A stretch of DNA of 29,851 nucleotides from positions 1-29,851 of the IMG/VR virus record IMGVR_UViG_3300044470_000192. One strand, given 5' to 3'. Positions within the stretch are counted from its first letter, which is position 1, and each line of letters opens with the position of its first letter. This document shows, one piece after another, positions 1,156-23,734 of this stretch. This stretch comes from a virus. The notes beneath the pieces are model-generated. The model searched no databases and had not been told where the DNA came from. It saw nothing but the letters and a program-made list of their open reading frames with translations. The position numbers and the translations under genes were made by a program.

Positions 1156-1257
1156 CTAATATAAAAGGAGAAAGTATGAAGTAGATTACAATAAATGGTC
1201 CTCCTTAATTTGTCACAAATAATAATTAGTTTATGTGACACTTAAAAGGAGAATACA
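1156..1257 (+). promoter_or_regulatory. leader with amber-containing mini-ORF and RBS-sequestering hairpin
   Basis: CTAATATA (1156-1163) is followed by AAAAGGAG and the mini-ORF ATG AAG TAG at 1176-1184. If the amber codon is read through, it continues for eight more codons to TAA (1206-1208). The last codons contain CCTCCTTA, an anti-Shine-Dalgarno sequence. CTCCTTAA (1201-1208) can pair with TTAAAAGGAG (1242-1251), the ribosome site of the next gene, and TGTCACA (1211-1217) with TGTGACA (1234-1240), forming one long hairpin. A ribosome that passes the amber codon would cover the anti-SD and free the downstream site. Confidence 0.55.
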
Positions 1258-1728
1258 ATGAGTGAAGTTATTGAACAGACGGTACTTAGGGACTATATTG
1301 TTAGTCATCAAAAATATGTAGAGTTGAAAGCCCTACAGATACAAATTGGAACATTCAGTAAAGAAAACCGAAAAAGCATCAAACAGTTTTATCAAGCTCG
1401 TCGTAAATTCTATCATGATAAAGGTATATCTATACCGAATGATGATAGTTATTATAAATATGATGAGAAAACCCATCATTATACTTCACGGGATACTTAT
1501 GAAGGCTTTGAGTTTGAGGATACAGTACAACCATATACTATTGAACCAGAAGAAGCCCGATACCTAAATATTATTTATGGTATTATCAAAGGGCAGCCTT
1601 ATAATGCTATTGAGTATACTTTTCGTGAAGGCAATAGACCTATAAGGGAGAATGTTCAATACTATGGACAAAAGTATAAATTATTGTCAAAAGAGATTGA
1701 CATTATCTGGGAAAAGGTGGACCTATAA
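1258..1728 (+). CDS. hypothetical protein, 156 aa, first gene of the Pth2 operon
   Basis: Starts at ATG 1258, 6 nt after AAAAGGAG. It is Tyr-, Lys- and Glu-rich with a helical N-terminal half, and has no motif I recognise. Its TAA overlaps the ATG of the peptidyl-tRNA hydrolase gene (TAATG), so the two are translationally coupled. Its ribosome site can be hidden by the leader hairpin described just upstream, which would put both genes under that switch. Confidence 0.8.
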   Translation: MSEVIEQTVLRDYIVSHQKYVELKALQIQIGTFSKENRKSIKQFYQARRKFYHDKGISIPNDDSYYKYDEKTHHYTSRDTYEGFEFEDTVQPYTIEPEEARYLNIIYGIIKGQPYNAIEYTFREGNRPIRENVQYYGQKYKLLSKEIDIIWEKVDL

Positions 1729-2090
1729 TGGTAAAACAAATTATTATTATAAACCCTAATACTGGATATAGCAAGGGTAGGATGATGGCTCAATGCGCTC
1801 ATGCATCTATTATGAGTATACTTAATTTAGGGGTGTATAAAGGAAATTCTTTTTATATTGATAATATAGACCCTGATATGCTTTATTGGATGAAGGAATC
1901 CTTTACAAAAATAGTTTATAAAGCTTCCTCTTTTCTAGAGCTTAAAACTATTATTGAGGAGGCTAAATTAAATAATATTCCTACCTTTTCAATGATAGAA
2001 GATGATACTATTCTGACTGCTGTAGCCTTAAAGCCTTCTGAAGAATCTAATTTGTTATTTCTAGACTCTTATAATCTTAGATTAGCATAA
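1728..2090 (+). CDS. peptidyl-tRNA hydrolase, Pth2 family
   Basis: 120 residues, the usual Pth2 length. KGRMMAQCAHAS (residues 16-27) matches the Pth2 signature G-K-x-x-A-Q-C-x-H-A. The later part (NNIPTFSMIEDD, then TAVALKPSE) follows the family's order of a turn region and a final strand. Pth2 enzymes cleave peptidyl-tRNAs that fall off ribosomes and so recycle tRNA. Bacteria normally use the unrelated Pth1, so a phage Pth2 supplements the host enzyme. It is coupled to the gene before it and lies near several tRNA genes. Confidence 0.85.
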   Translation: MVKQIIIINPNTGYSKGRMMAQCAHASIMSILNLGVYKGNSFYIDNIDPDMLYWMKESFTKIVYKASSFLELKTIIEEAKLNNIPTFSMIEDDTILTAVALKPSEESNLLFLDSYNLRLA

Positions 2091-2986: not shown

Positions 2987-3016
2987 ATAGGGAGGAGTAA
3001 TCCTCCCTATCTTTTT
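2987..3016 (+). terminator. intrinsic terminator
   Basis: ATAGGGAGGA (2987-2996), loop GTAA, TCCTCCCTAT (3001-3010), then CTTTTT. It would stop transcripts from GIY-YIG gene 1. The promoter just before it would start inside the stem and so escape it. Confidence 0.75.
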
Positions 3017-3218: not shown

Positions 3219-3640
3219 TATATGGTTTTTTTAATAACTACAGATTTTTAAGTAATTTTCATCTTTGCTCTATTCCCTATGAAGGACTTATGTACCCTTC
3301 GACTGAACACGCATTTCAAGCAGCTAAGACCCTAGACCCTAAGGAACGAGAGTTTATTTTAGAAGCTTCAACTCCTGGTAGAGCTAAACGAGCAGGAAGA
3401 CTAATAACTCTTAGACCTGATTGGGAAGAAGTAAAATTAGGAATCATGTATGAAGTCAATATGACTAAATATGACTCATACCCTGAACTTAAAGAAATGT
3501 TATTAGCTACAGGGGATGAGAAACTTGTAGAGGGCAATACATGGGGTGATACATTCTGGGGCCAAGTAGACGGGGTTGGAAAGAACTACTTAGGGAATAT
3601 CCTAATGCAGATTAGAAAAGAGCTAAGAGAGGGCCTATAG
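3215..3640 (+). CDS. NADAR (YbiA-like, DUF1768) family protein
   Basis: 141 residues. Family landmarks in order: FFNNYRFLSNF near the N terminus, PSTEHAFQAAK near residue 30, PGRAKRAGR near 55, W-x-x-V-K-x-x-I-M near 70, a TGDEKLVEGN turn and DTFWGQVDGVGKNYLG before the C-terminal helix. NADAR/YbiA proteins are N-glycosidase-type enzymes acting on nucleotide or ADP-ribose derivatives, and some remove ADP-ribose from guanine made by DarT-type toxins. In a phage this suggests reversal of a host ADP-ribosylation defence (inference). Its amber stop (3638-3640) lies inside the amber-suppressor tRNA gene. Confidence 0.88.
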   Translation: MIYGFFNNYRFLSNFHLCSIPYEGLMYPSTEHAFQAAKTLDPKEREFILEASTPGRAKRAGRLITLRPDWEEVKLGIMYEVNMTKYDSYPELKEMLLATGDEKLVEGNTWGDTFWGQVDGVGKNYLGNILMQIRKELREGL

Positions 3641-3702
3641 CTCAGAGGTTAGAGCACCGTATTCTAAACACGGGAACTAGGGTTCGAATCCCTATTGGCT
3701 CA
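3631..3702 (+). tRNA. amber-suppressor tRNA (anticodon CTA)
   Basis: Acceptor GGGCCTA (3631-3637) with TTGGCTC (3695-3701; one G-T pair and one T-T mismatch), D arm GCTC/GAGC, anticodon stem CCGTA/CACGG (A-C at the loop end), loop TTCTAAA, T arm TAGGG-TTCGAAT-CCCTA, discriminator A3702. With 5+7+5 nt in the anticodon arm and T at position 33, the anticodon is CTA, which reads UAG. A shift to Arg TCT would destroy the stem. The amino acid carried is unknown. The 5' end overlaps the NADAR coding sequence. No CCA is encoded. Confidence 0.8.
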
Positions 3703-9216: not shown

Positions 9217-10158
9217 ATGATAGAAAATAGAGAGTGCTATGGATATATTTATAGGGTTATGAATAAGAAATCTGGAAAGCTTTATATAGGACAAACAATA
9301 AAAAAAGGGTATAAATTTCATAGATATCTAGGATCGGGTCAGGCTATTGTAGCATTAGTAAAAAGAGAAGGAAAAGAAAATTTTTCTAAAGTAATTTTGG
9401 ATTATGCATTTAGTGAGAGGGAATTGAATTATTTGGAAAAATTATACATAGAGATGTTTTCTACTTCTTTTCCAGAAATAGGCTATAACTTAACTTTGGG
9501 AGGGCATAATGGAATTCCTAATGAGGAAACAAGAAAAAAAATAAGTATGGGAAATAAGGGAAAAAAGCTCTCAGAAGAAACAAGAAAAAAAATAAGTGAA
9601 TCAGAATCAGGAAAAAATCATTATAACTGGGGTAAACACCCTTCAGAAGAAACCAGAAAAAAACAAAGTATATCTCATTTAGGGCACTCTCCTTCTAATA
9701 AAGGAATACCTCATTCTCAAAATACTAAAAATAAAATAAAAGAAAAAAGAAGTCATCAAATAATGACAAATAGAAAAAAAGTTATAAATTTAGATACAAA
9801 AGAAATATTTGCAAGCATGAAAGAAGCCTGTAATAAATATGATATAATGCCTTCAGAGTTAACCTCCCATTGTCAACGAAAAGAAAATATTAGATATGTT
9901 AAAAAGTTTCGTTGGGCATATTATTCAGACTCTATAAATATAGAGGAGGAAATTAAATCTTCTTTTTTTATACAAAGAAATAAAGGATGTAATCATCCCA
10001 AATCTAGAATAGTTTTGAATATAGAAACAGGAAGAATATATAATACTGTTACAGAAGCTGCTTTATCTTGTGGCAAGCACCACTCTGGCATCATTGATTC
10101 TTGTACTAATCCTATATACACTTGTGGGGGTTTTCATTGGAAATACCTTGACAAATAA
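9217..10158 (+). CDS. GIY-YIG homing endonuclease 2
   Basis: 313 residues. Nuclease domain: GYIYRV and KLYIGQT in the first 30 residues, then a conserved Glu/Leu-rich helix near 75-85 and GYNLTLGG. There are several NUMOD3 repeats of the E-E-T-R-K-K-I-S kind (about 100-160) and two C-terminal NUMOD1-like segments, the second ending GGFHWKYLDK. There is no hairpin before it and only a weak, distant ribosome site (AGAGGT), so it may depend on coupling to the metallophosphoesterase gene. Its 3' end contains a promoter -35 box. Confidence 0.92.
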   Translation: MIENRECYGYIYRVMNKKSGKLYIGQTIKKGYKFHRYLGSGQAIVALVKREGKENFSKVILDYAFSERELNYLEKLYIEMFSTSFPEIGYNLTLGGHNGIPNEETRKKISMGNKGKKLSEETRKKISESESGKNHYNWGKHPSEETRKKQSISHLGHSPSNKGIPHSQNTKNKIKEKRSHQIMTNRKKVINLDTKEIFASMKEACNKYDIMPSELTSHCQRKENIRYVKKFRWAYYSDSINIEEEIKSSFFIQRNKGCNHPKSRIVLNIETGRIYNTVTEAALSCGKHHSGIIDSCTNPIYTCGGFHWKYLDK

Positions 10159-14752: not shown

Positions 14753-15448
14753 ATGTATTATATTTATTTAATAACTTTTCCTAATGATAAAGTTTATGTA
14801 GGTCAATCTAAAAATATAAAAAAAAGATGGTATGAACATAAAAGATTAGGAAAAAAAGGAAATGAACGAATTATACTTTATGAGGCAATACATAAATATG
14901 GAGTTGATTCCATTTCATTTGATATTATTGATAAAGCAGAAACATTAAAAAAAATTAATCAAAAAGAAATTCAGTATATAGTTCAGTATCATTCTTATAT
15001 TCATGATCTTGAATGTAATGGGTATAATATGACATTAGGTGGAGAAGGAACTGAAGGCCATATAGGTTTAAAGGGTCAAGCAGCTTCAATGTCATTAACT
15101 TCTATAGCAAAACGTAATAATTGTTCTTTAGAAGAAGCAAAAAAGTTAACCCCTATGTATGGTAAAGTAAGAGATGAATATACTAAACAAAGAGCCTCGG
15201 AAACTCATAAGGGAAAAATATTATCAGAGGAAACTAAGGAAAAAATTAGAGCAAAAACTATTAAATATTCTTATACCTTAACTAATACTGAAACTGGAGA
15301 GATATTCATAACTACAAGTTTAAATCAATGGTGTAAGGATCATAAAATAGAAAGGTCCATTCTCTCCAAAAGAGTGAATACCTTAGAGCAAAGACCTAGA
15401 AAAAAATTAAAAGAATGGAATATACAGAAAATTGATCTAACCTCTTGA
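14753..15448 (+). CDS. GIY-YIG homing endonuclease 3
   Basis: 231 residues. The nuclease domain starts at the N terminus: YYIYLI, KVYVGQS near 14-20, KRWYEH, then QKEIQYI near 76 and GYNMTLGGEG. A single NUMOD3-like stretch (KILSEETKEKIRAK, about 165-178) and a C-terminal helix-turn-helix-like part (TSLNQWCKDHKIERSIL) follow. Its TGA lies inside the -35 box of the next promoter. Translation is predicted to be blocked in read-through mRNA by the hairpin before it. Confidence 0.91.
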   Translation: MYYIYLITFPNDKVYVGQSKNIKKRWYEHKRLGKKGNERIILYEAIHKYGVDSISFDIIDKAETLKKINQKEIQYIVQYHSYIHDLECNGYNMTLGGEGTEGHIGLKGQAASMSLTSIAKRNNCSLEEAKKLTPMYGKVRDEYTKQRASETHKGKILSEETKEKIRAKTIKYSYTLTNTETGEIFITTSLNQWCKDHKIERSILSKRVNTLEQRPRKKLKEWNIQKIDLTS

Positions 15449-20975: not shown

Positions 20976-23060
20976 TTAGATAAAGCCTAATTTTTTGATC
21001 AAATCTTCAGTGTTTTTCTTTATATCATCATTGGTTAGAGTGATTTTGTTATCGTCCCAAACCTGCAATAGAGACTGTCCATCAGTAGCTAAATACTTAT
21101 GGGCTAGATAGACAGCCCCAGCAATGGCATCAGAACAGTCTTTGGCGTTTATACCCAATAGTGAGGTTTCCCACGCATAGTCAGCAGTGGCAGGATTAGG
21201 CGAATCCCCTATAGTATGGTCTATCTTTAGGCTCTTTGTTCGAGGACGTTGGGTGATTCTTAAAGACTTTAGGTTATTCTTGATAAAAACATTCCTTCCC
21301 ATCTTCAAGTTCCCTTGTTCAATCTGTTGCGCTAAAAATAAATAAGGGTCCATAGTTTCATCTACTGATATATGGTCCATTTCAATCTCTGCTCTCTCTA
21401 AGTGTTGTAATGCTGCTTCAGATTGATATGTGTCATATGAACCCATTATGATTGGTATTTGGCCCTTAGTAAATACATCAAAGATAAACTCTTTTATGGC
21501 ATCTAGGTTGATTCTACCACCAAAGGGATGAATAGGTATAACCATGTCTACTACATAAATAATATCATGTTCTAAATCTAATGCCTTATCGGTTTTCTTT
21601 CTCTCTACGTGAGCAAAAGCTATAGCGGACATATCATTCGACAAAGACTGGTCAATATGGAATACTCGTGGAACCCCTGGTTTATAGTAGAAATGGTACC
21701 CAAACCCAGACTTAATAAATAAATCATCTCTAATTTTTTTCCATATCAATTCATGTGGTTCCATTCGAGCATCGATATGTAAGCAAAACTCTACTGATTT
21801 CATTTGTGGTATAAAACAATTATTTATTTTAGTATAGTCATAAAATAATTTATCTAAAGAACCTTGTGGTATTCCAGCTAAATCTTTTAGTGATTTTTGT
21901 AAATCATCATGAAACATCTGATACAATTCTTTAGGAACCATAAGAATGTCAGAAGCCTCATACCCCTCTGAGGAACCTAATATTTGGGGAGGTTTTCCAT
22001 TGCTCCCCTTAAAAATAGGAAATCTATCATCAACATTTTTATAATCACCTGGAACCCAGTCCCAATGGGCACCCTTGATAACAAAATTAGATGGGTCTTT
22101 ATCCGCATCAAACATACAATATTGGTCTATAGGGGATTCCATATCATTAGGACTGCTATCCAATATTGTACGGGCGAAATAATTTAATCCATGTTTGCTA
22201 GTAGGGTCCTTCATTCTTGACCATACTCTTTTTTTAGCATCATTATAAAATCTTAAAATATAATCATCTGTTTTACCGTTTTCTCTAAAGAAATTCAATT
22301 CAGTAAAAGTGCAACATACTATGGTTAATCCTAATAATCTTCCAGGAGTTGATGCTAATTTATAATTAACTCCATTTGAAAATTGTAGAGAAGAAACCCC
22401 ATTTCTTGAGGCTGTTGTCCAATAAAGCTTATTCACAGTTCTTTTTTCTTGATATTCTTTTTGTTTTTTAGCAATATCTTTTTTAGTTCTAACTTGTTCA
22501 AAAAATTCTGAACCTTCAAGAATGTTTATCATAGGATTTAATAATACCTCTGAACTCTTTTTAAGGTTAAAGGAGCAAAATACTTGTGCTAAATCCCCAC
22601 CTATATTTTTCTCCATTAATGCTTTTTTAGCATCATACATTAAAGCTAAATGTATAGTTGTGTATAAATTCCATAAAACAGCCAATACTGATTTTCCAAA
22701 ACCTATAAAAGGAAAAAGAATAGCATTTCTATAATTATCACTAGAAAATTTAATAAAAGAATCATACACCCAGGGGTATAAAGAGGATGCAGTGTACTCC
22801 CCTAAATATTTTGCTGATAAAAACTCTTCGGGGGTTGGGGGTTTTACTCTATATTTTACCCTCCAAGAATTATTTATTAATTCTATTTTCTCACTTTCAT
22901 CTAGTTTATCATTACTAATAATGAATTCTAATGCTTTTTGTATTTTTTCTATGCTAATATCATCATATATTTGAAATAAATCTATTAAATCAACATCTCC
23001 TTCAAGTACATCCAATAAAATAGAATTTAAATTTTCTGATTTATTAATATCTATTTCCAT
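20976..23060 (-). CDS. terL: terminase large subunit
   Basis: 694 residues from the ATG at 23060 (GGGAG 8 nt upstream; the TTG at 23075 would sit in the ribosome site). FIGFGKS (about 118-124) is a Walker A P-loop. LTIVCCTFTE (about 245-254) is the Walker B strand, with Thr before the Glu where most have an acid. FHIDQSLSND (Asp470) starts the RNase H-like nuclease, and SDAIAGAVYLAHKY near 650 supplies its last acid. TerL pumps DNA into the prohead and cuts it. The gene overlaps GIY-YIG gene 4 by TAATG. Confidence 0.9.
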   Translation of the reverse strand: MEIDINKSENLNSILLDVLEGDVDLIDLFQIYDDISIEKIQKALEFIISNDKLDESEKIELINNSWRVKYRVKPPTPEEFLSAKYLGEYTASSLYPWVYDSFIKFSSDNYRNAILFPFIGFGKSVLAVLWNLYTTIHLALMYDAKKALMEKNIGGDLAQVFCSFNLKKSSEVLLNPMINILEGSEFFEQVRTKKDIAKKQKEYQEKRTVNKLYWTTASRNGVSSLQFSNGVNYKLASTPGRLLGLTIVCCTFTELNFFRENGKTDDYILRFYNDAKKRVWSRMKDPTSKHGLNYFARTILDSSPNDMESPIDQYCMFDADKDPSNFVIKGAHWDWVPGDYKNVDDRFPIFKGSNGKPPQILGSSEGYEASDILMVPKELYQMFHDDLQKSLKDLAGIPQGSLDKLFYDYTKINNCFIPQMKSVEFCLHIDARMEPHELIWKKIRDDLFIKSGFGYHFYYKPGVPRVFHIDQSLSNDMSAIAFAHVERKKTDKALDLEHDIIYVVDMVIPIHPFGGRINLDAIKEFIFDVFTKGQIPIIMGSYDTYQSEAALQHLERAEIEMDHISVDETMDPYLFLAQQIEQGNLKMGRNVFIKNNLKSLRITQRPRTKSLKIDHTIGDSPNPATADYAWETSLLGINAKDCSDAIAGAVYLAHKYLATDGQSLLQVWDDNKITLTNDDIKKNTEDLIKKLGFI

Positions 23061-23734
23061 TATACATACTCCCAATGTAATTTATTCCAGGTTTTTCTTT
23101 GACCTAGACAACACTCGGATATATGATTTGAATTTTTATTAAATATTTCTTGGGCTTGGCGAGAGGAATCATATATTTTATTAGTCTCTATACAAATAAT
23201 TTTTTTTTCTTTTCCATTGGTTTTCCCATATAATAAATTATTTTTTCCTCTTATTCTTTCTTTTTGTTCCTCTGTTCTTTTTTTACCTTTTAGTTTAAGT
23301 ATTCTTTTATTTATTGTTTCTTGGGATTGCTTTCTACCTAATGCTGCTATTCTCATTAATATTCTTGTTTCTTTAGAAACAGAATGCCCTTTTTGAGCTA
23401 AACTCATTTTTCTTTTTACTTCCTCGGAAAGTTTTCCATCAGCACCAGGGAATTTAATATTATAGCCCTTTTGGTAATTCATAGTATCATAGTAAAATAC
23501 AAAATAAGTTTCATAAAAATTTAATAATTGCTTTGTCCAATTATCATCAGTAATCTCTATTAGAACTTCTTTATCAAAGTTTCCCCATTCATATTTATTA
23601 ATAGCATTATAAAAATAAGTGTTTTCTTTTTTATACCAAAATTTGTGTTCTCTCCATCTACTTTTAATATTTCTACTTTGGCCTATGTATATTTTTCCAT
23701 TTATTTTATTAGTAAACTTATAAATTCCTATCAT
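23060..23734 (-). CDS. GIY-YIG homing endonuclease 4, directly before terL
   Basis: 224 residues. GIYKFTN and KIYIGQS in the first 20 residues, RWREH, then NFYETYFV and GYNIKFPGADG, are followed by NUMOD3-like repeats (SEEVKRKMSLAQKG, SQETINKRI; about 108-145) and a NUMOD1-like C terminus (KIYDSSRQAQEIF to NKLHWEYV). The stop overlaps the terL ATG and the last codons supply terL's ribosome site, so the insertion has kept terL translation coupled to the endonuclease. A CTAACTAA motif lies 26 nt before its ATG. Confidence 0.92.
   Translation of the reverse strand: MIGIYKFTNKINGKIYIGQSRNIKSRWREHKFWYKKENTYFYNAINKYEWGNFDKEVLIEITDDNWTKQLLNFYETYFVFYYDTMNYQKGYNIKFPGADGKLSEEVKRKMSLAQKGHSVSKETRILMRIAALGRKQSQETINKRILKLKGKKRTEEQKERIRGKNNLLYGKTNGKEKKIICIETNKIYDSSRQAQEIFNKNSNHISECCLGQRKTWNKLHWEYV

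Follow-up and report, generated by a model that had tools for sequence, protein, structure and literature searches.

The question raised by this locus is whether translation of a phage operon encoding a peptidyl-tRNA hydrolase could be governed by the decoding of a stop codon. The window (the whole 29,851-nt stretch of the IMG/VR virus record analyzed here) carries a ribosome site followed by ATG AAG TAG upstream of the operon, which the initial annotation described as a two-codon ORF whose frame, if the amber codon were read, would continue to TAA across a mimic of the 16S anti-Shine-Dalgarno (anti-SD) sequence, CCTCCTTA. All of these elements were found at the base level (ATG AAG TAG, 1176-1184; ATT ACA ATA AAT GGT CCT CCT TAA, 1185-1208; CCTCCTTA, 1200-1207). 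G001 and G010 in the following list of features are IMG/VR phages described below.

1163-1170, plus strand: SD1, AAAAGGAG, the ribosome site of the leader ORF, read from the sequence; AAGGAG is kept in G001 and G010.
1176-1208, plus strand: leader ORF MK[UAG]ITINGPP-stop, read from the sequence; its plan is repeated in other carriers.
1182-1184, plus strand: amber codon, the putative gate of the leader; UAG is codon 3-5 in all leaders, and a CTA tRNA is present in every carrier.
1200-1206, plus strand: Pro-Pro codons and the first T of TAA (CCTCCTT); the Pro codons, not the bases, are kept in G010 and XbC2.
1211-1240, plus strand: inner hairpin TGTCACA...TGTGACA, 7 bp; G001 retains the stem with one compensatory pair.
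1244-1251, plus strand: SD2, AAAAGGAG, the sequestered ribosome site of ORF156, from the sequence and the computed opening cost.
1258-1728, plus strand: ORF156, a small, mostly helical protein; a homologue precedes Pth2 in G001 and G010.
1728-2090, plus strand: Pth2-type peptidyl-tRNA hydrolase (PF01981, E=1e-13; 72% identity to the G001 copy).
3631-3702, plus strand: tRNA with anticodon CTA, a presumed UAG suppressor (ARAGORN; Rfam tRNA, 59.2 bits).

The proposed pairing of the anti-SD bases with the ribosome site of the next gene, together with an inner 7-bp stem, was confirmed. CTCCTT at 1201-1206 is complementary to AAGGAG at 1246-1251 in the ORF156 ribosome site, the arms of the inner stem lie at 1211-1217 (TGTCACA) and 1234-1240 (TGTGACA), and the whole hairpin (1199-1253) folds at -15.1 kcal/mol (z=-4.5), with none of 200 shuffled sequences as good. 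The two-codon ORF and the 16S mimic are thus both present, but neither is the conserved part as such: comparison with relatives points to the Pro-Pro codons and the start point of the hairpin as what is kept, rather than 16S mimicry, and the mini-ORF is better seen as a 10-12-codon leader ORF interrupted by UAG.

The leaders were folded with a 30-nt ribosome footprint, a simple model. With UAG in the A site, freeing SD2 costs 2-9 kcal/mol across the leaders, near the cost in free RNA, from which the window and G001 depart in that the cost is higher with the ribosome at UAG (3.2 to 6.8). Placing Pro-Pro in the P and A sites lowers the opening cost to ~0.1-2 in seven leaders and frees SD2 fully or partly in eight of nine, the release being partial in that of Serratia phage BF and the gain absent in that of Xanthomonas phage XbC2; the window itself goes from 6.8 kcal/mol at UAG to 0.4 at Pro-Pro. 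The mean gain across six lineages is 5.0 kcal/mol, against 1.0±0.55 kcal/mol after shuffling of the stretch that separates Pro-Pro from SD2 (0/200). A ribosome halted at UAG is in this model predicted to keep SD2 shut, and one reading on to open it. Three features of a translational attenuator are accordingly visible in the leaders: all have an SD and ATG and keep the in-frame Pro-Pro, so that they are translatable; a structure hides the next gene's ribosome site (weakly in XbC2); and a defined ribosome position opens that structure by computation.

A search of INPHARED by DNA similarity returned no relatives of the window. In IMG/VR, two near-identical phages, G001 and G002 (loci L001 and L002), carry ORF156 (65% identity) and Pth2 with the element in front, and their leader reads MK[UAG]ISNRSPP-stop. 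The ORF, the amber codon and the hairpin (z=-5.3) are all kept in G001, as are ATGAAGTAGATT, the 15-nt spacing and CCTCCTTAATT, and the pair C1216-G1235 of the window is replaced there by G-C. Many other gene leaders of the window/G001 pair are also 70-87% identical, so this pair alone is modest evidence. Forty-two loci came from a terminase search; among 26 records searched for ORF156, the only homologue was that of G010 (305,833 bp; 40% terminase identity), where it lies immediately ahead of Pth2 and a CTA tRNA. Its leader reads MKK[UAG]TRATQPP-stop. The anti-SD bases are lost in G010 (CCG CCC), Pro-Pro-stop stands at an unchanged codon distance, and a different hairpin, beginning at the Pro-Pro stop, covers the ribosome site.

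Further carriers came from a scan of all IMG/VR contigs with the pattern GGAG-ATG-AAR-(0-6 nt)-TAG-N15-CCNCCNTAA. The nine loci obtained were G001, G002, G010, three chance matches and the new G030 (L086), G031 (L087) and G032 (L089), each of which has the leader before a small KExYL ORF, a Pth2-like gene downstream and a CTA tRNA in the record. ORF122 of L089 led in turn to the cultured phages BF, CBB, GAP32, XbC2, Kaldavass and pEa_SNUABM_19; the leaders of this BF clade read ML[UAG]NPSTGPP or MML[UAG]KFSTGPP, again with five codons between UAG and Pro-Pro. Candidates rejected from the viral scans were L088, L090 and L092, which have no valid in-frame leader before such a gene, and L004, L005 and L008, obtained with a first pattern in which ATT was fixed, which are chance matches in coding DNA. 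A looser regular expression run over 1.37 Mb of fetched phage DNA found one place per carrier and one chance site.

The complete plan (SD, ATG, one to three codons, UAG, exactly five codons, Pro-Pro) is present in the window, G001, G010, G030, G031, G032, BF, CBB, GAP32, XbC2 and Kaldavass, and leaders stand before small-ORF/Pth2 operons in the near relative, in G010 and in four further phages or clades. G010 and the BF clade were reached through a downstream protein and not through the leader pattern, and the Pro codons differ at wobble positions across leaders (CCTCCT, CCGCCC, CCACCG). The probability of finding CCNCC by chance at the exact place in both G010 and BF is ~2e-6, a rough figure that is based on local base composition and ignores shared ancestry. 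It is these distant phages that, on sequence comparison, make the case for the leader strong. The idea that the mini-ORF and CCTCCTTA are fortuitous deserves hardly any credence: other leaders of the window/G001 pair are similarly conserved and the matches to the pattern in cellular DNA (see below) look accidental, but chance is contradicted by the distant phages, by the single regular-expression site per carrier, by the shuffling result and by the UAG codons within Pth2-like genes.

Scanning 257 Gb of cellular genomes with the pattern gave 18 matches, none with a nearby CTA tRNA or Pth2-type gene. The Acinetobacter matches were rejected since they are a set that represents a conserved inverted repeat; in L112, L116, L120 and L124 this repeat, GGAGGGATTT...AAATCCTCCC enclosing ATGAAGTAG, resembles a structured intergenic element and seems unrelated to the phage leader.

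The proteins encoded directly behind the leaders are less readily classified. ORF156 had no match in Pfam and no convincing match in PHROG, and no fold could be usefully matched to the AlphaFold models of ORF156 (pLDDT 64) and ORF122 (pLDDT 67). At 24-36% identity, the KExYL ORFs of G030, G031, G032 and the BF clade can be aligned among themselves, and share with ORF156 and its G010 homologue only a short motif, which suggests, tentatively, one common family.

The phage-encoded tRNA with a CTA anticodon, also part of the original description, was called by ARAGORN, and an Rfam scan of the window found tRNAs only. The anticodon sits in a cloverleaf, as in natural UAG suppressor tRNAs, and the gene is separated from Pth2 by a GIY-YIG gene, a small ORF and a NADAR gene. 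All leader carriers possess a CTA tRNA, with very different bodies and a constant TCTAAA anticodon loop (that of CBB straddled a sequence-piece border and was read separately), and the tRNA is presumed to be charged and to read UAG. The carrier genomes are not recoded: UAG ends 1-22% of their genes, the extensions beyond it are short and none is systematic, and genome-wide UAG recoding of the code 15 type was therefore rejected. The control relative G008 has 27 tRNAs, no CTA tRNA and no true leader.

A second kind of UAG is found in the Pth2-like genes themselves. In BF, CBB, GAP32, XbC2, Kaldavass, G030, G031 and LR756511 the gene has a UAG at codon 3-4, the starts being MRN[UAG]TPYTYCFIRKD (G030), ME[UAG]KVYTYAFIRRD (G031), MTH[UAG]VETPYLYCFVRKD (LR756511), MTH[UAG]NDKTWIYVFVRTD (BF), MAQ[UAG]NEKTWIYVFVRTD (CBB and GAP32) and MAH[UAG]NEKTWIYVFVRTD (XbC2 and Kaldavass). 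Between the UAG and the conserved first strand of the core, none of the eight genes has an NTG codon, save for a CTG in LR756511, and the gene of GAP32 has no obvious Shine-Dalgarno site. The Pth2-like gene of G032, located behind the leader, lacks a UAG of its own. Scores against PF01981 exceed the curated cut-off of 23 in the window (51.9), G010 (54.1), LR756511 (28.0) and XacN1 (25.3), and fall below it in BF (17.2), G030 (15.0) and G031 (18.1). ORFs with an N-terminal UAG arise by chance in the control G008 at a rate similar to those with TAA or TGA, and our claim is therefore limited to Pth2-like genes. The sequences suggest that UAG gating of Pth2-type genes takes two forms, one in a leader and one at an early codon of the gene.

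CTA tRNAs also occur in LR756511 and in XacN1, which has two. In XacN1, MK[UAG] opens a 286-codon ORF that ends in a PTH2 domain and contains internal ATGs. This ORF (L190:3735-4595), with its UAG at codon 3 and a KExYL gene directly after it, possibly fuses a Pth2-like domain to one bearing HD-like motifs and is a candidate target of the two orphan CUA suppressor tRNAs. A UAG-x5-Pro-Pro leader was sought at the right place in XacN1, Atu_ph07, SCTP-2, LR756500, LR756511, Astolliot and Myrna, and none was found; its absence from XacN1, which has two CTA tRNAs, counts against gating, as do the internal ATGs of the XacN1 ORF, the missing folding gain of XbC2 and the partial one of BF.

Taken together, we consider it probable (roughly 0.78) that translation of the operon depends on readthrough of UAG by the suppressor tRNA and that, in the window, this occurs by translational attenuation with a ribosome dwelling at Pro-Pro on the hairpin. 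Ribosomes would initiate on the leader and meet UAG at codon 3. Where release factor 1 (RF1) wins, the ribosome would leave, the hairpin ~18 nt downstream would stay intact and the ribosome site of ORF156-Pth2 would be closed. Where the suppressor tRNA wins, five further codons would be translated, bringing the ribosome to Pro-Pro-UAA on the 5' arm of the hairpin, where dwelling would hold the hairpin open and expose the ribosome site of ORF156, which would also permit translation of Pth2. Dwelling is expected there because ribosomes terminate slowly when Pro-Pro precedes the stop; termination is hampered by a C-terminal Pro-Pro, and elongation stalls at Gly-Pro-Pro (PMC3985003). In related phages, the Pth2-like gene may carry the gate within its own frame, as the UAG at codon 3-4. 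The earlier proposal that amber readthrough opens the ribosome site and that the output reports on the CTA tRNA is supported by the in-frame UAG-x5-Pro-Pro plan of the distant phages, the CTA tRNA of every carrier, the modeled folding switch and the UAG within Pth2-like genes.

Suppressed ribosomes might instead run to or into the downstream gene, hairpin opening being secondary. The BF leader has a stop-start overlap, UAG occurs within Pth2-like genes, and in CBB, GAP32 and XbC2 the leader enters the gene in frame, no further stop intervening, so that direct fusion or coupling may act in these three. As a general explanation we find this unlikely: the frame stops at TAA after Pro-Pro, 38-59 nt before the ribosome site, in six leaders (window, G001, G010, G030, G031 and G032), which makes plain run-through impossible and hairpin opening necessary there.

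Less support was obtained for the alternative raised in the initial annotation, a feedback loop through peptidyl-tRNA released at the mini-ORF. In the form considered here, ATG-AAG-UAG would shed a short peptidyl-tRNA, and Pth2 expression would follow the load of peptidyl-tRNA or the depletion of tRNA-Lys, with no readthrough involved. The window, G001 and G032 do have two-codon mini-ORFs with UAG, it is established that Pth recycles peptidyl-tRNAs which drop off early (PMC10192219), and axe-txe is regulated by a two-codon minigene (PMC8708949). Release at such a minigene nevertheless predicts neither the conserved frame nor UAG-x5-Pro-Pro, the CTA tRNAs or the UAG of Pth2-like genes. The sense codons before UAG are variable (AAG; AAG AAG; AAA CGA; AAA AAG CTT; CTA), and in the folding model the hairpin lies beyond the reach of a ribosome placed at ATG, AAG or UAG. 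We regard it as quite improbable. Very improbable, too, is a purely structural device, in which a protein (e.g. ORF156) or temperature opens the hairpin hiding SD2 and the mini-ORF does no more than shield the mRNA or bring in ribosomes. The structure is indeed strong and conserved, and protection of txe mRNA has been attributed to the axe-txe minigene (PMC8708949), but such a device leaves the in-frame UAG, the five-codon spacing, Pro-Pro and the CTA tRNAs unexplained, and the in-frame entry of the CBB, GAP32 and XbC2 leaders into the gene without a second stop also speaks against it.

The proposed gating possibly serves sensing or feedback of the balance between suppressor and RF1: suppression near start codons or at normal stops would yield short or stalled peptidyl-tRNAs, which Pth2 would clear. 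We prefer this purpose by analogy with RF2 autoregulation, in which a protein responds to the same decoding step on which its synthesis depends (PMC12421855); alternatives are late timing and surveillance of the integrity of the tRNA pool. More speculatively, and with the balance somewhat against it, UAG-gated leaders and Pth2-like genes may represent a widespread phage regulatory class with the suppressor tRNA as signal, a homeostatic loop that senses the RF1/suppressor balance or tRNA-pool damage and responds by making Pth2 and a helper protein, which would remove peptidyl-tRNAs arising at UAG or keep their number down.

The leaders resemble the ermC, cat and secM attenuators in having a short upstream ORF, a stalling motif on a structure and a ribosome position that controls the next ribosome site. 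Unlike those systems, where the input is a drug or secretion, the phage leader is broken by UAG at codon 3-5 and its input would be stop decoding by a suppressor tRNA. As in RF2 (prfB), an early in-frame stop would tie expression of a translation factor to termination at that stop (PMC12421855), but the phages use UAG, a codon that the prfB study did not find in this premature position (PMC12421855), the frame is unchanged where prfB has a programmed +1 frameshift at an in-frame UGA, the product is of the Pth2 type and a tRNA would read the stop. Code 15 crAss-like phages likewise encode CTA suppressor tRNAs and genes with in-frame UAG (PMC9523058, PMC10879173), whereas the carriers keep UAG as a normal stop and would gate one operon or gene set at codon 3-5. 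The axe-txe minigene is also a cis-acting two-codon ORF upstream of a gene, with TAA as its stop, no suppressor tRNA and no strong leader structure reported (PMC8708949), and an engineered feedforward loop, in which a gene with nonsense codons is expressed only with a suppressor tRNA, is synthetic and has neither attenuator nor Pth2 (PMC7969014). Our literature search, whose coverage mostly excluded subscription journals and preprints, found no account of such a leader.

Many large phages carry CTA suppressor tRNAs without genome recoding. The authors of the XacN1 study could not identify the genes targeted by its suppressor tRNAs (PMC5852040), and the putatively UAG-gated leader and Pth2-like genes offer a specific, conserved target and hence a candidate job for such orphan tRNAs. 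Stop-codon decoding by a suppressor tRNA would be a new input for translational attenuation, and the cultured carriers, which include Serratia BF, Pectobacterium CBB, Cronobacter GAP32 and Xanthomonas XbC2, make the gating idea directly testable. The findings also suggest that early-UAG genes, such as the Pth2-like genes of BF, CBB and GAP32, are mis-annotated or missed.

Several other elements were observed in the window. A tRNA-Tyr(GTA)-like sequence (1053-1141), not called by ARAGORN, lies just 5' of the leader, and G001 has a tRNA-Tyr at the matching position (L001:4283-4367). A terminator-like GGGAGGAGTAATCCTCCC with a T-run (2990-3016) is conserved in G001. Homing-endonuclease-like ORFs with a GIY-YIG-type N-terminus are found at 2146-2979, 9217-10158, 14753-15448 and 23060-23734 (minus strand), the first of which, the one checked against Pfam, follows Pth2, ahead of the next gene, and has no counterpart at that place in G001. 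Finally, a metallophosphoesterase (PF00149; 7397-9199), with a homologue in G001, appears to be split by a LAGLIDADG-type intein that starts with Cys-Leu-Asp-Ala-Glu-Thr and ends with Thr-Gly-Asn-Cys.
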